Below are positions 3,169-29,567 of a stretch of 33,073 nt of DNA, piece after piece. How positions within the stretch are numbered: the stretch's first letter is position 1; each line of letters begins with the position of its first letter. The notes under the pieces are model-generated. The model saw nothing but the letters and a program-made list of their open reading frames with translations. It was not told the origin of the DNA and searched no databases. Position numbers and translations under genes: made by a program. The DNA comes from Lysobacter sp. Root690 (GTDB lineage: Bacteria > Pseudomonadota > Gammaproteobacteria > Xanthomonadales > Xanthomonadaceae). The stretch is taken from NCBI RefSeq assembly GCF_001427785.1, contig NZ_LMHM01000018.1, forward strand, positions 299,413 through 332,485, given 5' to 3'.

Positions 3169-3257
3169 TATTGAAACAGCCACCGACGTGCAAAAGCCAC
3201 TGTTGCCTCAATCCTCAGACAACCTTCAAAACAACAACGGCCCACGACACTCCCAGC

Positions 3258-3397
3258 CGTCATTCCCGCGAAGGCGGGAATCCAGTGACTTCAAGCGTTC
3301 TCGCACGGAGAGCCCTGGATCCCCGCCTTCGCGGGGATGACGTTCTGGAAGTGTCTCGCGCGAAAGTCACTGGATTCCCGCGTTCGCGGGAATGACG
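3258..3397. repeat. 140-bp MITE-like element with 34-bp terminal inverted repeats
   Basis: The left arm at 3258-3291 begins CGTCATTCCCGCGAAGGC. The right arm at 3364-3397 is its reverse complement with one mismatch over 34 bp. A third, inverted copy of the 28-bp core lies between them at 3315-3342. Each core is itself a hairpin (TTCCCGC...GCGGGAA). It belongs to the widespread CGTCATTCCCGCGAA-type dispersed palindromes of proteobacteria and carries no transposase. Confidence 0.8.
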
Positions 3398-3521
3398 ACC
3401 TTGTAGATTCGCGATCAAATTGGTCAGCCTGAAAGCTCGCTTGAGCGCTGGTAAAACTCGCGCTTTCAACCATCAACTTCGACCATCGACCTTCAACGTT
3501 CGACCTCAATGCGAACGCTGC

Positions 3522-3549
3522 CGTCATTCCAGCGTTCGCGGGAATGACG
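3522..3549. repeat. Collapsed copy of the CGTCATTCC palindrome family
   Basis: CGTCATTCC at 3522-3530 and GGAATGACG at 3541-3549 flank a short GC-rich centre. This looks like two opposed copies fused by deletion. Confidence 0.7.
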
Positions 3550-3658
3550 GCCTGAAAGATCCGTAGCAGATTGGACCGCCCGCAAGTTCGTCGAGCATTT
3601 GAAACAAAGCTTTTACGTCTCGAGCTTCGAACCTCGGCCTTCGATCATCGAATCCCGA

Positions 3659-4629: not shown

Positions 4630-6021
4630 TCAGGCGATGCCCAGGCCGTCGATGGCCACGATCGCGTCGGGATCGAAGCCGGCCAGTTCGGCGAAATGTC
4701 GGCCGCGCGCGACGTAATCGCGATACGGGCCGAAACTCGGCGCGCCCGGCGACAACAACACCGTGCCACCGGCCTCGCCCAGGGCCGCGCGCGCCTGCGC
4801 CATCGCCTCGGCGAGGTCCTTGGCCGCGCTCAGGTGCAAGTCCGATTGCGCCGCGATCGGCGCGAGCAAGGCGTGGATGCGCGGACCGTTCTCGCCCATG
4901 GTCACGATCGCGACCGGCGCGCGCCGACGCATCGCATCGGCGAAGGCCTGCCAGTCGATACCGCGGTCGTGGCCGCCGACCAACAGCGCGATGCGTCGAT
5001 CCGAATAGCAATCCAGCGCCGCCAAACTCGCATGCGGTGTGGTGCTGATCGAATCGTTGACGTAAGCAATGCCGTCACGCGTGCCGAGCGGCTGCAACCG
5101 GTTCGGCAACGGCCTGAAACTCGCGGCATGCGGCGCCAGCGGTATCGCGTCGAGGCCAAGCGCTTCGATCGCGGTCAGCACCGCGCACAGATTGCCGCGA
5201 TTGTGCCTTCCGGGCAGCGGCAGGGAAGCGGTATCCATGATCTCGCGATCGCCGCGCCACAGCGCGTCACAGCGCAGATGCCAGCCGGCCGCATGGCCGA
5301 ACCAATGGATCTCGCTGTCGGGCAACTTCAAGCCCGCGAGCAGCGCATCGTTGGCGTTGAGCACCGCGATGCGCGGCTTGCCTTCGGTCAACAGGCGCAG
5401 CTTGTCTTCGACATAGCGCGCCTGCGAGCCGTGCCAGTCGAGATGTTCGGGATAGATGTTCAGCGCGACCGCGACTTCCGGCCGCGCGCCGCTCGCACCG
5501 ACGTCGCCGGTCTGGTAGCTCGACAACTCGATCGCCCAGAATTCCGGCGGCCGCGGCGGGTCCAGCACTTCCAGCAAGGGCAGCCCGATGTTGCCGGCCA
5601 ACGCGGTGCGATGACCGCCGGCGCGCAGCAGATGCGCCAGCAACGAGGTCGTGGTGCTCTTGCCCTTGGTCCCGGTCACGCAGACCGTGCGCGCGTCGCC
5701 ATGCTCGCCGAACCACAGCGCGGTGCCGCCGAGAAAACGCGCGCCCTGCTCCACCGCCGCCAAAGCCTCGGCGCGGTACGGACTGATGCCCGGCGATTTG
5801 ACGATGATCTCGAACGCGCCCAGCCGCTCGGCGGTGGCCGCGGTTTCGATCGCCAGCCGCGCGTCGCCGAGCGCGCGCGCATCGGCGGCTTCCTCGTGCG
5901 AACAGAACAGGGTCAGCGCGAGTTCGGGCAGGCGCGAGCGGATCGCGTGATAGGCCGCGCGGCCTTCGCGGCCCCAGCCCCACAGCGCGACCGCGCGGCC
6001 GTCAAGCTGCGAGATACGCAC
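4630..6021 (-). CDS. murD2: MurD2: UDP-MurNAc-L-Ala--L-glutamate ligase
   Basis: An ATP-dependent Mur ligase of 463 residues with a GTG start. Visible features are the P-loop GTKGKST at 117-123, IELSSYQT at 163-170, EHLDWH at 191-196, the probable carbamylated Lys206 in YVEDKL, GRHNRGN at 270-276 and [10 protein letters not shown] at 321-330. In ordinary MurD the last motif reads NDSKATN, so the substrate-binding loop differs. The gene overlaps murL by 20 bp, which points to translational coupling. In Xanthomonas the MurD2 partner of MurL adds L-Glu (not D-Glu) to UDP-MurNAc-L-Ala, and MurL then epimerises it. The same role is inferred here from the pairing. A conventional MurD elsewhere in the genome cannot be excluded. 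Cytoplasmic. Confidence 0.88.
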
Positions 6022-7483
6022 GCAACCGCTCCCACAGCCGCGGCGGCAGACGCTGCTCGTCGTCCAGGGTCAGCAGCGGCTCGATGCGCAGATCGTCGTC
6101 GCCCAGTTGCGGGCGGATCTCGCGCGCGAAGCGTTCGACCAGGGCGTCTTCGCGCCATTCCGGACGCTCGCTCAGCGCCGCCATCGCCGCGCGCGACTCG
6201 CGGCCTTCGCCGACGCATTCGAACGGCTTGTGGTTGCGGTATTCGAGCAGCGCGTCGTAGCCCTCGGTCTGGCCCGGATCGTCGAGCAGGTTGCGGCCGA
6301 AAATGCCGACCAAGCGAGGCTTGGTCATGAACGGCGCCAGCGCCAGAAACACGAAGTGGCATTTAGGACACACCCCGCACCAGCGACTCGCCGGACGCTC
6401 GCCCAGAATATGGAAATTGCGATTGCAACTGCTGAAATGCGCGTCGTAGCGATCGCTGCGCGCGAACTGCCGCGCCACCGCCAACTCGCTGAGCGGACGC
6501 AGCAGCGAGTAGTAATGCAGGTCGGCCGCGACATGCCGTTGCACGTAGTCGCCGAACGCCTGTTCGCAGGCCCAGCCCTTCGACCACTGGTGATTCACCT
6601 CGCCGGTGCCTTCGATCAGGCTGCCGTAGCTGGCCGAGCGTTCGTTCGAGAACACGACTTGATCGACGCCGTGCAACAGCGCCGCCAGCACCATGATCGC
6701 CGAGTTCACCACCGTGACCGGGATATGCCCGTTGTAGGCGCCCTGGCGATTGAGTTCGAACAGCTGCGGCGCGAGCGCGCGGCCGAGGTTGAGCGTCGGC
6801 AGCTCGGTGCGCGCGGCGCAGGCCGCGATCAGCTGCGAACCGCCGATCCAGGTGACCGTCTGTTCGATGCCGAGCGCGCGCAGGGCTTCGATGCTGACCA
6901 GCGAATCCTTGCCGCCGCCGATCGCGACCAGGGCGTGTTCGCGCAGGCTGAGCGCGGGGGCGTGGCCCTCACCCCGACCCTCTCCCGCAGGCGGGAGAGG
7001 GAGAACATCAAGAGCAGAGGCATGGGCCGGACCATCGAGTGCAGACGCATCCCCACCATCGCTCCCTCTCCCGCCTGCGGGAGAGGGCTGGGGTGAGGGC
7101 ACCCCCACGGGAAACTTGATCTTCCCATGCAGATTCAACCCATTGCGATACGCGAATTCGCCGAGCCCGTTGACATAGATCAACTCCAGCAACGTCGCCG
7201 CATCGGCATCGATCGCATACGCATCGATGCGGATCTCTTCGGGCACGGCCGCCTTGTAATAGCTCACGCCGGCGATCAGGTGCAGCAGACGCAACGCCTG
7301 CTGCACCGCGTGTTCGCGCGCGCCGTCGAGCACGAACGGCGCGCCCGGGATGGTGATGGTCTCGATCAGCTCCGGACCGTCGTCGAAGGCATACACCAGT
7401 TCGGCGACGCCGGTGGCGGCGTCGAGCTGACAGCGGACGAAACGGAAGGCGCGAACCGCGTCGCGTTGGAATTGGGCACTCAC
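6002..7483 (-). CDS. murL: MurL: UDP-MurNAc-L-Ala-L-Glu epimerase
   Basis: 493 residues from a GTG at 7483. MurL converts the terminal L-Glu of UDP-MurNAc-L-Ala-L-Glu to D-Glu in an ATP-dependent reaction, replacing the need for free D-Glu from a racemase. The ATP-binding loop AIGGGKDS lies at 187-194. Cys353, Cys369, Cys372 and Cys375 (the last three in WCGVCPKC) could bind a metal. Residues 129-173, between the N-terminal domain and the GGGKDS loop, are encoded by a dispersed palindromic repeat inserted in frame and read as low-complexity [11 protein letters not shown] and [13 protein letters not shown]. The gene follows lysAC by 67 bp and overlaps murD2 by 20 bp. Assignment rests on the GGGKDS/Cys pattern and the MurD2 partner. 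Confidence 0.88.
6966..7099. repeat. 134-bp palindromic repeat inserted inside murL
   Basis: Two arms of about 37 bp in inverted orientation, 6966-7002 (beginning CCCTCACCCC) and 7063-7099 (ending GGGGTGAGGG), match with two mismatches. Each arm contains its own hairpin, CTCTCCCGC...GCGGGAGAG. The 60-bp centre is unrelated to other copies. The same arms flank the intergenic element at 11409-11539. The whole element is in the murL reading frame without a stop. Confidence 0.88.
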
Positions 7484-7550
7484 AAGCGTTTTCCCGAAAT
7501 CAGAACAAGGCGCGCGCAGGGTTTGGATGCGGTCGTGGATGCGGTCGATC

Positions 7551-10148
7551 TCATTCGATCACCTCCTCGGCCGGCAGCGCGCGCAGGTTGTAGGTATTGG
7601 CCATGGCCATGCCATAGGCGCCGGTGTCGGCGACGAGGATGACGTCGCCTTCCTCGGTCGCGATCGGCATCGGTCGGCCGCGGCCGAGGACGTCGCTGCT
7701 TTCGCACACCGGGCCGACCACGTCGAACGCGGCGACCGCGCTGTCGTCGAAGCGGCTCAGGTTATGGATGCCGTGGTAGGCCTCGTACATCGCAGGACGC
7801 ATCAACGCGTTCATGCCGGCATCGCAACCGATCCGGCGCACGCCGTCCTTTTCGATCACCTGGGTCACCGCGAGCAGCAGCACGCCGCTTTCGGCCACGA
7901 GGTAACGGCCGGGTTCGATGATCAGCCCATAACGCGGATACGCGGCCTTGATTTCATCCAGACCGGCGCGCCACTGCGCGAGATCGAACAGCGGCGCTTC
8001 CGGCGTGTAGGCGATCGGCAAACCGCCGCCGATGTCGATGGTCTCGATCGTGCCGACGCTGTCGGCCAATCCGGCCAGGCTGGCGTAGACGCCGCGCCAG
8101 TGCTGCGGATCGTCGATGCCGCTGCCCAGGTGCGCGTGCAGGCCGCTGATGCGGATGTTGAGCTTGCGCGCCTCCTCGATGAAGGCGTCGAAACGCGACA
8201 GCGGCAGGCCGAACTTGGCCGCGACGCCGCCGGTGCGGACTTTCTCGTGATGGCCTTCGCCGTGACCGAGGTCCAGGCGCAGCCACAGGGTGCGACCGCG
8301 GAACAATTCCGGCCAGCGTTGCAGCGCTTCGATGTTGTCGAGGGTGACGATCACGCCGCGCTTGAACGCGGCTTCGTACTCGCGCCGCGGCGCGAAGCTC
8401 GGGGTGAACAACACCCGTTCGGGCGCCATGTGCGGGATCGCGGCGAATACGCGCTCGATCTCGGCCAGCGACACGCACTCCAGGCCGAAACCTTCGCCGA
8501 CAATGGTCTTGAGCACGGCCGGATGCGAATTGGCCTTCATTGCGTAGAAGCAACGGTCGACCGCCTCGGTGCCGATCAGCGAGCGTGCGCGTTCGCGCAC
8601 GGTGGCCAGATCGTAGACGTAGCGCGGGGTGCCGGCATCGGCCATCGCCAGCAGCCGTTCGCGCCGGCCCTGCCACCACGCCGGCGCGCGCTGCGGCTTG
8701 CCGTGCGCGATCTCGCGCCAGCTCGGGCCGAACACGCTGTCGTCGCGCACCGGCATGGCGCCGCCGCGGATCAGTTCGTGATGCAGATGCGGCAACAGCC
8801 CGTCGGCATCGGCTTCGTCGATCACGAAGGTCAGGTTGAGGTCGTTGGATGACTGCGAAATCAGGTGCACGCGCTCGCGCCCGAACGCGGCCCAGATATC
8901 GGACAGGCGATGCAGCAGCGAACGCATGCCGCGGCCGACCAGGGTGATCGCCGCGCACGGCGCGATCACCTTGACCCGGCACACCTCGGCCAGGTCGGCC
9001 GACAGCGCTTCGAGCACGTTGCTGTTGACCAAATTCTCGCTCGGGTCCAGCGACACCGTTACGTTGGTTTCCGACGAACCGATCAAGTCGATCGACAAGC
9101 CATGCCGCTTGAACCGCTCGAACACGTCGGCCAGGAAGCCGACCTGCTGCCACATGCCGATGCTTTCCATCGACACCAGCACGATGCCGTTACGCCGACT
9201 GATCGCCTTGACCCCGGGCACGGTCGCCGCGCTGGCGTCGATGCGGGTGCCGGGCAGATCGAAGCGTTCGGTGTCGAGGATCGCCATCGGCACGCCGGCG
9301 TCCCGGCACGGCGCGATCGAACGCGGATGCAGCACCTTGGCACCGGTGGTAGCGATTTCCTGGGCTTCGGCGTAATCCAGTCGGGCCAGCAGCCGCGCGT
9401 CGGGCACTTCGCGCGGATTGGCGCTGAACATGCCGGGCACGTCGGTCCAGATTTCCACCCGCTGCGCTTTCAGCAGCGCACCGAAGTACGCGGCCGAGGT
9501 GTCGGAGCCACCACGTCCGAGAATCGCAGTGCCGCCGTCGCCATGGCGGGCGATGAAGCCCTGGGTGATCAGCATCGCGGTCGGCTGCGCGTCGAAACGT
9601 TCGGCGAAACCCGCTTCGGCCTGGTGCCGGCAATTCACCGACAACCGCTGCGCCCATTCGGTCGCGTTCGGCAGCGACACCGCGTCGAGCCAGTCGCGCG
9701 CATCGCACCATCCGAAGTCGAGCCCCTGCGAACGCAGGTAGGCCGCGCCCAAGGTGGACGACAGCAACTCGCCCTGCCCCAGCACCTCGGCCTGCCAATC
9801 CAATGCGCGGTTCGCCGCGCGCGGATCGGTTTCCAACGCAATCAGTTTCGCCAGGCGTTCGCCGAGCACCGTATCCGGGTCGAGATCGAGTTCGGCGCAG
9901 AACGTGCGATGACGCTCGACCAGCCCGGCGAAACGCGCGGCGATGCCGTCGTCCTGGCCGGGCGCGGCATACGCGATCGCCTGCAGTTCGTTGGTCACGC
10001 CCGACAACGCCGAGACCACCACCAGCACGCGCCGGCCGTCGTCTTTCAGGCGTTTCGAAGCCAGGCGTCCGATCGTGTCCCAACGGTTGCGGCGGGATAC
10101 CGAAGTACCACCGAACTTGAGCACCACCCAGCCTGTCGCTTGCGCCAC
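7551..10148 (-). CDS. lysAC: Bifunctional aspartate kinase / diaminopimelate decarboxylase
   Basis: A fusion of the first and last enzymes of lysine biosynthesis, 865 residues. The N-terminal half is aspartokinase: VLKFGGTSV near residue 8, GRGGSDTSAAYFGA near 211, then ACT regulatory domains (about 325-445) with the FLADVF and SETNVTVS patterns, suggesting feedback control by amino acids. The C-terminal half, from about 500, is a PLP-fold III decarboxylase: Lys538 in YAMKANSHP is the PLP lysine, followed by HAHLGSGI, IGGGLP, EPGRYLV, CESSDVL and a typical end near ANTYNLR. The start chosen is GTG 10148 because GAGGAA lies 6 nt upstream; GTG 10151 is possible. This fusion is typical of Xanthomonadaceae. 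It heads the probable lysAC-murL-murD2 operon, linking DAP/lysine flux to muropeptide synthesis. Confidence 0.95.
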   Translation of the reverse strand: MAQATGWVVLKFGGTSVSRRNRWDTIGRLASKRLKDDGRRVLVVVSALSGVTNELQAIAYAAPGQDDGIAARFAGLVERHRTFCAELDLDPDTVLGERLAKLIALETDPRAANRALDWQAEVLGQGELLSSTLGAAYLRSQGLDFGWCDARDWLDAVSLPNATEWAQRLSVNCRHQAEAGFAERFDAQPTAMLITQGFIARHGDGGTAILGRGGSDTSAAYFGALLKAQRVEIWTDVPGMFSANPREVPDARLLARLDYAEAQEIATTGAKVLHPRSIAPCRDAGVPMAILDTERFDLPGTRIDASAATVPGVKAISRRNGIVLVSMESIGMWQQVGFLADVFERFKRHGLSIDLIGSSETNVTVSLDPSENLVNSNVLEALSADLAEVCRVKVIAPCAAITLVGRGMRSLLHRLSDIWAAFGRERVHLISQSSNDLNLTFVIDEADADGLLPHLHHELIRGGAMPVRDDSVFGPSWREIAHGKPQRAPAWWQGRRERLLAMADAGTPRYVYDLATVRERARSLIGTEAVDRCFYAMKANSHPAVLKTIVGEGFGLECVSLAEIERVFAAIPHMAPERVLFTPSFAPRREYEAAFKRGVIVTLDNIEALQRWPELFRGRTLWLRLDLGHGEGHHEKVRTGGVAAKFGLPLSRFDAFIEEARKLNIRISGLHAHLGSGIDDPQHWRGVYASLAGLADSVGTIETIDIGGGLPIAYTPEAPLFDLAQWRAGLDEIKAAYPRYGLIIEPGRYLVAESGVLLLAVTQVIEKDGVRRIGCDAGMNALMRPAMYEAYHGIHNLSRFDDSAVAAFDVVGPVCESSDVLGRGRPMPIATEEGDVILVADTGAYGMAMANTYNLRALPAEEVIE

Positions 10149-10183
10149 CACGTCTTCCTCGGTTGTCGTTACGGGTTTCAAGC

Positions 10184-10199
10184 CCCGGCGAAGGCCGGG
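10184..10199. repeat. Hairpin in the lysAC leader
   Basis: CCCGGC-gaag-GCCGGG gives a 6-bp stem with a 4-nt loop, 36 bp upstream of the lysAC start. It resembles the core of the GCGAAGGCGGG dispersed palindromes. It could affect leader folding, but there is no T-run. Confidence 0.5.
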
Positions 10200-10323
10200 A
10201 CAGGTCGATCGGCCCGCGCGCCGCATCGATGCGGGGCCGCGGGGTTGCACACTTGCCGGTCCTGCGCGCCTAGAATCGCGTGCTTGCCATCGCGCGCGCC
10301 CGGGGTCCGGGCATGAGGCGACG

Positions 10324-11398: not shown

Positions 11399-11408
11399 GC
11401 CTGCGCGG

Positions 11409-11539
11409 CCCTCACCCCAACCCCTCTCCCGCAAGCGGAAGAGGGGCTTTTGAGCAGGGATTTATCACGATCATGAGCAAGCTGCGGAAAATCCTTCTCC
11501 CGCTCGCGGGAGAAGGTGGCCCGAAGGGCCGGATGAGGG
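11409..11539. repeat. Intergenic copy of the CCCTCACCCC palindromic element
   Basis: The left arm begins CCCTCACCCCAACCCCTCTC at 11409. The right arm runs to GGATGAGGGC at 11540 and includes CTTCTCCCGC...GCGGGAGAAG. At about 131 bp it is close to the 134-bp copy inside murL, with an unrelated centre. It lies between the convergent 3' ends of the phzF-family gene and the symporter gene and could also act as a bidirectional terminator-like structure. Confidence 0.8.
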
Positions 11540-11593
11540 CGCACGCAGGCTAAGTACCACTCATCTCAAATCCGCGAGTCTCTGTAACAACCG

Positions 11594-14205: not shown

Positions 14206-14545
14206 ACCGCTGGGCTTGTCTTCATCGTATGCGGCGCACGCGGCGCGTATCGCTCAAACAAGCAACGTGCAATGAAGAACGCTGGGACCTCGTCGTCCCA
14301 CGAAGCGTCATGACCTCGCGATCACCACGCAAAGCGCAGTGACGCGGTCGCGGCTCGCGCCGCTCCTACAGTGAGAAACGTAGCTGCGACCGCCCATGTA
14401 GGAGCGGCGCAAGCCGCGACCGCGACATCACAGTCACGTCGCCAGCAACAACGAAACAGACACCAACCGGATCAACCGTGCTTGGTGTCTACGTTCTACC
14501 TGTGTAGCGACGTGCGGACCGCGCCCCGCAGCCCAACCGAATCAA
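14206..14545. other. 340-bp convergent intergenic region with a REP pair
   Basis: It lies between the 3' ends of the Crp/Fnr gene and the glycine-zipper gene. The only structure I see is the inverted GTAG REP pair at 14346-14421. No gene is supported. Confidence 0.6.
14346..14421. repeat. Inverted pair of GTAG-type REP elements (copy 1)
   Basis: The right unit at 14398-14421 reads GTAGGAGCGGCGCAAGCCGC then GACC. The left unit at 14346-14369 is the same in inverse orientation with one difference. Each unit has a GTAG head and an internal GCGGC/GCCGC stem, as in REPs mobilised by RAYT transposases (the Stenotrophomonas GTAG type). No RAYT gene lies in the window. Confidence 0.85.
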
Positions 14546-16060: not shown

Positions 16061-16091
16061 GGCCGGGATTTCGTCGTGAGTGAAGTGGCGC

Positions 16092-16164
16092 GGTCGCGGC
16101 TCGCGCGGCTCCTACAGGGGCAAACCGATATGGCCTACCTGTAGGAGCGGCGCAAGCCGCGACC
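16092..16164. repeat. Inverted pair of GTAG-type REP elements (copy 2)
   Basis: The left unit lies at 16092-16115 in inverse orientation. The right unit at 16141-16164 has the same sequence as at 14398-14421. The pair sits between the OsmC 3' end and the hydrolase start. Confidence 0.85.
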
Positions 16165-16224
16165 GCGTGGTTTCAAGTGTCGAGCGCGGCAGTCACGAAA
16201 GACCGTACTGCCAACTTGTACCCA

Positions 16225-26082: not shown

Positions 26083-26280
26083 AGCAAAAGCGAATCCCCC
26101 CCTGCCCCCCTTTTCCAAAGGGGGGAACAGCAAGAGCGGGCGCTACGGCGATTTTCGGCGGCGAATCGCTCGAGGGAGTCGCACCGGCGAATTGGATCTT
26201 GCCGCTAGCATCGACCTAATTCTTTCTGCAGTTGCTTTTCCCCCTTTGGAAAAGGGGGGAAGGGAGGATTCGCTTTTGCT
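26083..26280. repeat. About 200-bp element with C-rich inverted terminal arms
   Basis: The left arm (26083-26133) starts AGCAAAAGCGAATCCCCCC and includes CCCCTTTTCCAAAGGGG. The right arm (about 26227-26280) is its imperfect reverse complement and ends GGATTCGCTTTTGCT. The centre has no coding content. It is MITE-like, with no transposase. Confidence 0.8.
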
Positions 26281-29358: not shown

Positions 29359-29388
29359 CGGTTGACGACGACCTTTTCGAAATGACGC

Positions 29389-29467
29389 GGTCGCGGCTCG
29401 CGCCGCTCCTACAGGCAGCACACGAAGCTTCACGCAAGCCCCTGTAGGAGCGGCGCAAGCCGCGACC
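29389..29467. repeat. Inverted pair of GTAG-type REP elements (copy 3)
   Basis: The left unit lies at 29389-29412 in inverse orientation. The right unit at 29444-29467 is identical to the right units of copies 1 and 2. It is located between the AraC and EamA genes. Confidence 0.85.
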
Positions 29468-29567
29468 ACGCCACCTCACACCCGACGCCAAACCACCGAA
29501 CCCGCGACCCCACCAAAACCGCAATCTGCTACAAGACCCCGCCATCGCCGCCCTCCACACTGCGCGC

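Follow-up and report, generated by a model that had tools for sequence, protein, structure and literature searches.

Palindromic repeats of several families recur in frame at one linker of the cell-wall enzyme MurL in Lysobacter and its relatives

The murL gene of Lysobacter sp. Root690 contains, within its reading frame, a palindromic repeat dimer whose family is scattered throughout the same genome, and other species carry different palindromic repeats at the same position of MurL. The dimer lies in a stretch of 33,073 nucleotides that was analyzed as a whole and is referred to here as the window (Table 1). We consider it very probable that a BIME-like repeat inserted into the linker of murL and that, within genes, copies persist only in frame and in disordered linkers that tolerate them.

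Table 1 Features of the window that bear on the repeat in murL
Feature	Position	Strand	Remarks
murD-family ligase adjoining murL	4630..6021	minus	TIGR01087, 299.7 bits
murL	6002..7483	minus	uninterrupted 493-aa ORF; NF041275 MurL_Xanthmoales, 809.1 bits (cut-off 700)
GGGKDS loop codons, residues 189-194, just past the insert	6902..6919	minus	invariant in 52/52 aligned sequences
Palindromic repeat dimer, predicted to be translated as MurL residues 129-173	6966..7099	minus	net gain of 41 residues over the usual linker
Second arm, inverted	6965..7003	minus	palindrome, then GGGGTGAGGGC tail; read as ...GEGRGEG
Spacer between arms, 58 bp	7004..7061	minus	differs among species
First arm on the murL strand	7062..7100	minus	GCCCTCACCCC tail, then palindrome
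Bifunctional aspartate kinase / diaminopimelate decarboxylase, upstream of murL	7551..10250	minus	NF006515, 1363.9 bits
Intergenic relative	11408..11540		slightly decayed type A arm, then inverted type B arm

MurL was recognized by a match to NF041275 above the curated cut-off together with an adjoining MurD-type ligase. The profile match falls in two stretches, the better of which begins at residue 172 of the protein and position 128 of the profile. The ligase is named murD2 by its place beside murL; a MurD2/MurL neighbor pair, XOO_1320/XOO_1319, appears in the accessible part of PMC8788868. A Pfam search with MurL at an E-value of 0.001 returned no match, and a search by sequence for a solved relative yielded none that was convincing (best E 0.6). 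Foldseek with the predicted structure of MurL identified three solved structures at E < 0.001, namely 9y01_B (a chain in the QatB-QatC complex, 1.6e-4) and the QueC entries 2pg3 (1.8e-4) and 3bl5_A (6.4e-4), with modest TM-scores of 0.28–0.37 by query length. These proteins, which we take to be PP-loop type enzymes, fit the view that MurL, as modeled, is an enzyme of this type. The MurL reaction is described as AMP-forming in the accessible text of PMC8788868, and the likeness of the MurL model to QueC and QatB-QatC may bear on this epimerase reaction. A profile search of the genome for glutamate racemase gave a single TIGR00067 match of 28.7 bits, below the cut-off of 146.65. Because no racemase exceeds this cut-off, the D-glutamate of the cell wall is probably supplied through MurL alone, and murL appears, from the genome sequence, to be essential.

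The two arms of the element in murL are 95% complementary. A first-pass annotation of this DNA had described inverted arms of 37 bp at the element ends; the inverted arms are indeed there, with a length of 39 nt each. Each arm, which we designate type A, consists of the palindrome CCCTCTCCCGC-nn-GCGGGAGAGGG with the GCCCTCACCCC tail outside. The segment of MurL from the YxxGLGEF motif to GGGKDS most commonly measures 51 residues in homologues and 92 in the window protein, so that the net gain is 41 residues; the roughly 45 residues that were originally thought to be added correspond to the span of the element itself. Since a length of 134 bp is not divisible by three, the frame is kept through small local differences at the element edges. 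An AlphaFold model built with 52 aligned sequences has a mean pLDDT of 83.7, and segments of at least three residues with pLDDT below 50 are limited to residues 132–171, 354–370, and 417–419. The blocks flanking residues 132–171 have pLDDT values that are mostly 81–98. The model thus predicts that the insert forms a disordered loop flanked on each side by confidently folded structure. The earlier proposals that the element is in frame within an otherwise intact murL and that it is tolerated as a linker agree with the uninterrupted ORF, the profile match, and this predicted disorder.

The genome contains 113 exact copies of the type A core, and a reversed-pattern control gave none. A second core, type B, occurs in 41 exact copies and belongs to an arm of the form CCTTCTCCC...GGGAGAAGG. 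The intergenic element at 11409–11539, which the first-pass annotation had placed in the same family as the murL copy, has a first arm of type A and a second arm of type B, and is therefore a hybrid. Because both this copy and the one in PurL (see below) pair the two types, A and B look, at the level of sequence, like sub-families that mix in dimers. We surveyed 57 distinct type A clusters with 1.5 kb flanks among the matches listed, which cover 74 of the 113 exact cores and are not a random draw (65 loci less L020, L033, and L156, in which the pattern core is absent, and five repeated loci). Eight clusters are arranged FR, seven RF, and one RR; three have two cores with one full arm, and 38 are single exact cores. 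A cluster was scored as coding when it was spanned by a frame whose codon usage was coding-like in both flanks, with codon scores trained on eight window ORFs assumed to be genes and with thresholds of our own choosing. By this test, coding frames span 4/57 clusters among the matches listed (3/56 when murL itself is left aside), compared with 732/1140 control positions in the same loci (binomial P 1.6e-19). Type A copies are thus strongly depleted from genes. The four exceptions lie in MurL, PurL, IcmF, and a molybdopterin oxidoreductase. A special translatability of the element was considered and rejected, since eight dimers have a mean of 2.25 open frames against 2.01 in shuffled sequences, which is little more than composition provides.

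We compared 94 distinct MurL sequences, comprising the best 80 of 475 contig loci, the window genome, and 19 other genomes of the genus, less six duplicate genomes (L117, L120, L123, L125, L127, and L132); 11 repeated loci had also been dropped before counting. The linker is short in 64/94 (segment of 50–54 residues, no recognized repeat), carries a recognized repeat at the site in 23/94, a figure that is not an unbiased rate because selection of the best 80 by similarity to an insert-bearing query may favor carriers, and is long without a recognized repeat in 7/94. One of the last group (L046) looks like a decayed type A copy. The 23 carriers represent two related sub-families, one unrelated family, and three cases assigned by resemblance. 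Type A alone is found in 14 genomes and in both arrangements, with tails outside (L001, L115, L116, L034, L118) or palindromes outside (L045, L047, L076), as well as in single units (L097, L106) and a remnant (L119). Type B occupies the linker in L093, L109, and L103, and A occurs together with B in L051 and L052. The linker of L070 holds type C, a different family with GTAGCCCGGGTAGAGCGC arms. Type D, in L056, L066, and L067, is REP-like by resemblance, and its arms are weak, scoring 12, 11, and 7 against a shuffle 99th percentile of 11.4. Linker arm scores reach at least 18 in 11 distinct genomes, and the highest score among mononucleotide shuffles is 13. In L055, we observed by eye that the insert is accompanied by about five in-frame tandem units of 36 bp, giving a segment of 146 residues.

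The first-pass annotation had suggested looking for relatives that lack the segment or have another linker in its place and, conversely, for homologues that encode it in genomes free of related repeats. Most MurL homologues have the short linker without the segment, and additional repeat copies (4 to 130 exact cores) are present in the carrier genomes examined, so that the refuting case did not arise; the position of the copies relative to genes was surveyed in the window genome. The stronger of the suggested supporting outcomes was obtained, in that repeats of other kinds occupy this position in other species. Exact type A cores number 123, 98, 52, 108, and 97 in genus genomes G003, G004, G005, G014, and G009, and 4–130 in ten other searched genomes with type A in the MurL linker; the genomes of L051, L052, and L055 have only 4–5. 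Four genomes lacking a murL insert have 55, 0, 15, and 1. Type B cores number 41, 45, 63, and 5 in the genomes of L093, L109, L103, and L051, and 0 and 0 in two genomes lacking an insert. Type C is present in 6+3 copies in the genome of L070 and also, in 3+5 copies, in the genome of L067, where the linker is free of C. Among 20 genus genomes, the six with a murL repeat (the G009 remnant included) have a median of 103 type A cores versus 30 in the others, an excess with a one-sided P of 0.004 that is not corrected for kinship. The exception is G010, which has 249 exact cores, twice any other of the 20, and in which no repeat was seen at the MurL, PurL, or IcmF sites.

A tree of the MurL core, built from columns outside the linker by a quick method with SH-aLRT support only, requires at least 13 changes in repeat presence, at least eight of which are forced by well-supported branches, and 17 when the families are told apart; gain and loss are not distinguishable in these counts. 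The repeat label is clustered on the tree (0/500 shuffles as low), so the 23 carriers are not 23 events. Two pairs of sisters on well-supported branches differ in the linker. L034 has a full dimer and its sister, L119 (G009), has only a 22-bp scar (support 98). The scar resembles the end of the second arm, being identical to L034 at 20/22 bp, and the G009 linker is 39 residues shorter and in frame. The second pair consists of L045, which has an insert, and L057, which does not (support 100). Both differences point to recent and repeated change in the MurL linker. Within single species, no insert was seen paired with an empty site.

Similar recurrence is observed in two of the other genes. PurL (phosphoribosylformylglycinamidine synthase) was identified by a profile match of 1396 bits (cut-off 783), IcmF by 1359 bits on the part of the gene that was covered (cut-off 1500), and the molybdopterin oxidoreductase by Pfam PF00384. 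The PurL linker contains A with B in G000 and G003 and B in G012 and G018, that is, in 4/17 resolved genomes of the 20 in the genus (G002, G011, and G016, 3/20, were left unresolved); the linkers of G005 and G004 are somewhat longer, with no recognized repeat. In IcmF, type A is found in G000, G003, G009, G014, and G016 and type B in G011, G012, and G018 (8/20). Another long, charged linker, with no recognized repeat, was seen at the IcmF site of G004, G006, and G015 (L214, L216, L217).

The encoded peptides differ among genes: PSPQPSPA in MurL, HPHPNPSPASGRG in PurL, and the product of another frame in IcmF. All occurrences of the R-arm tail GGGTGAGGG (17/17) use the GEG frame, although two of its three frames are free of stops, the second open one being Arg-rich. 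For F-arm tails, two Pro-rich frames account for eight occurrences each and the third frame for one. Taken together, these readings indicate that the peptide itself is not conserved and that disorder-prone frames prevail. This regularity of frames, together with the seven further long linkers in which no repeat was recognized, could mean that a longer linker is beneficial, by aiding domain movement or contact with the neighboring ligase, and that repeats are recruited as disordered spacers. However, many of the tail occurrences are related by descent and are not independent, mere tolerance also predicts avoidance of Arg-rich or stop-containing frames, and the majority of homologues manage with a short linker; we regard a benefit as unlikely.

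Insertion machinery might instead prefer these linkers as DNA targets, in which case the recurrence at the same narrow MurL site in many species, and at the PurL and IcmF sites, would stem from a hot DNA motif and not from permissiveness of the protein. Families with different ends, in both arrangements, share the MurL site, which is not readily expected from one target rule. Moreover, the three proteins share only a variable linker as far as they were compared, motifs aside. We therefore give this account little credence.

The RNA of the murL copy folds with a minimum free energy of -125.9 kcal/mol (z -9.3), and 0/200 shuffled sequences fold as well. This exceptional stability, and the arms that remain complementary in L001, L115, L116, and L118, would suit an element retained in murL for its regulatory structure at the RNA or DNA level, such as a hairpin that slows ribosomes or protects the mRNA. 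Recent insertion accounts equally well for complementary arms, though, and the homologues with short linkers do without the structure. Only the 22-bp tail remains in G009, the sister of a carrier; L097, L106, and L103 have single or decayed units in place of long arms; and Rfam at gathering scores has no match in the window. A retained structure is accordingly quite improbable. A role as terminator or promoter was also considered and rejected: positions 5900–7700 contain no promoter-like site and one terminator-like site, outside the element, where 1.1 are expected. Finally, the idea that the segment is ordinary MurL sequence of ancestral origin, similar to repeats by chance, or else an assembly artifact, has a negligible probability and is in our view refuted by the distribution of the sequences, namely the many homologues that lack the segment, the copies of the family throughout the genome, and like inserts in murL of the separately assembled G003, G004, G005, and G014.

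We favor insertion of a BIME-like repeat and its survival where a linker tolerates it. A high-copy repeat would have inserted in a short, unstructured linker between the N-terminal part of MurL and the domain with the GGGKDS loop. The copy is free of stops in the frame that it occupies and would encode a disordered loop rich in Pro, Gly, Ser, and Ala, which is why MurL would tolerate it. Insertion would be general rather than specific to murL, with copies in structured protein being lost and those in a permissive linker with a benign frame persisting, drifting, shrinking, or being replaced. If copies survive only at permissive linkers, the MurL, PurL, and IcmF sites would be refilled by whichever palindromic families the genome itself carries. 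Past transposition, translation of the segment, its neutrality, and filtering by selection are the steps that we infer. A bolder version, which we offer tentatively and consider doubtful, is that dispersed palindromic repeats form, throughout this family of bacteria, a standing supply of disordered linkers to conserved enzymes, in which unrelated repeat families are recaptured at the same inter-domain positions of essential or central enzymes with in-frame turnover and filtering for Pro/Gly frames, and in which the linker may even be favored.

The class and mobility of the repeat were also analyzed. Palindromic units in alternating orientation, as in BIMEs, are present, and the repeat is a high-copy, dispersed palindrome that is mostly extragenic, as are REPs (113 cores; 53 of the 57 listed clusters lie outside coding frames). 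Type A arms, with their GCCCTCACCCC tail and CCCTCTCCC palindrome, have no tag of the GTAG/GTGG/CGTC type, classes that are set out in the accessible parts of PMC3733652 and PMC2817692. A genome search returned four Y1_Tnp matches, within 1.5 kb of which no type A or B arms were found (repeats were searched around three of the four and patterns around all four). Type A as a RAYT-mobilized REP was therefore rejected, although its transposase may have diverged or been lost. Two of the matches are flanked by other REPs: L146 by GTAG REPs and L145 by GTGG-like REPs. The window itself contains GTAG-type REP dimers (TGTAGGAGCGGCGCAAGCCGCGACC) at 14326–14444, 16072–16187, and 29369–29490, and L146 is likely to be their RAYT. 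A MITE was rejected because no target-site duplication was found at eight type A dimers; the best flank match is three bases in 2/8 and none of at least three occurs in 6/8, with a random 95th percentile of five. The window has other repeats: a third palindromic family (CGTCATTCCCGCGAAGGCGGGAAT) at 3256–3563, with several units in both orientations; a long inverted repeat at 26083–26280, with CCCCCCTTTTCCAAAGGGGGG-like palindromes at both ends and 116 nt between arms; and two 300-nt direct copies at 2–661, 83% alike and starting 360 nt apart.

A literature search judged by title and abstract, with most subscription journals outside its scope, found no paper on repeats in MurL, and one for the core letters and SPQPSPA gave nothing that looked relevant among the papers listed. 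The closest known systems include the intragenic GTAG/CGTC REPs of Di Nocera et al. (2013), which, in the accessible part of that paper (PMC3733652), include copies in recB of X. campestris and X. oryzae whose sites roughly coincide. To that extent, they resemble the present repeats as high-copy intergenic palindromes in single units and dimers, some inside ORFs. In contrast, types A and B lack the GTAG/CGTC tag, none of the Y1_Tnp matches in this genome is flanked by them, and they recur in 23/94 MurL homologues and in two more genes. BIMEs likewise consist of paired palindromic units in opposite orientation at high copy, matched here by the mixing of A and B in hybrids; the differences are that no cognate transposase was found and that some copies lie in coding frames. 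MITEs are also short and dispersed with inverted ends and no gene of their own seen, whereas our repeats have no target-site duplication at eight dimers and no parent transposon identified.

Rickettsia palindromic elements (RPEs), the classical case, were reportedly described by Ogata et al. in 2000 and 2002. They are palindromic repeats of about 150 bp, many of them in frame within genes, according to the available portion of PMC10969869, which also raises for Rickettsia the question of whether intergenic repeats feed sequence into working proteins. The murL copy resembles them, within what that portion covers, as a palindromic repeat that is in frame, stop-free, and inside a conserved gene. 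A repeat becoming protein-coding thus has precedent in the Rickettsia elements (PMC10969869) and the intragenic REPs (PMC3733652), insofar as these sources are accessible; what is new is that several repeat families recur at a single linker in different genera. In Rickettsia, genome decay is in our view an easy excuse. Here the hosts are Lysobacter and relatives with larger, free-living, GC-rich genomes, in which 53/57 listed clusters lie outside coding frames, and two sub-families plus at least one unrelated family occupy one linker across genera in differing frames. Spreading non-coding DNA seems to supply protein sequence to the same linker again and again. Because one site holds different repeats in different species, it constitutes a natural replicated experiment, in which gain, decay, and loss are countable and the two forms of MurL, insert-bearing and insert-free, are open to direct assay.
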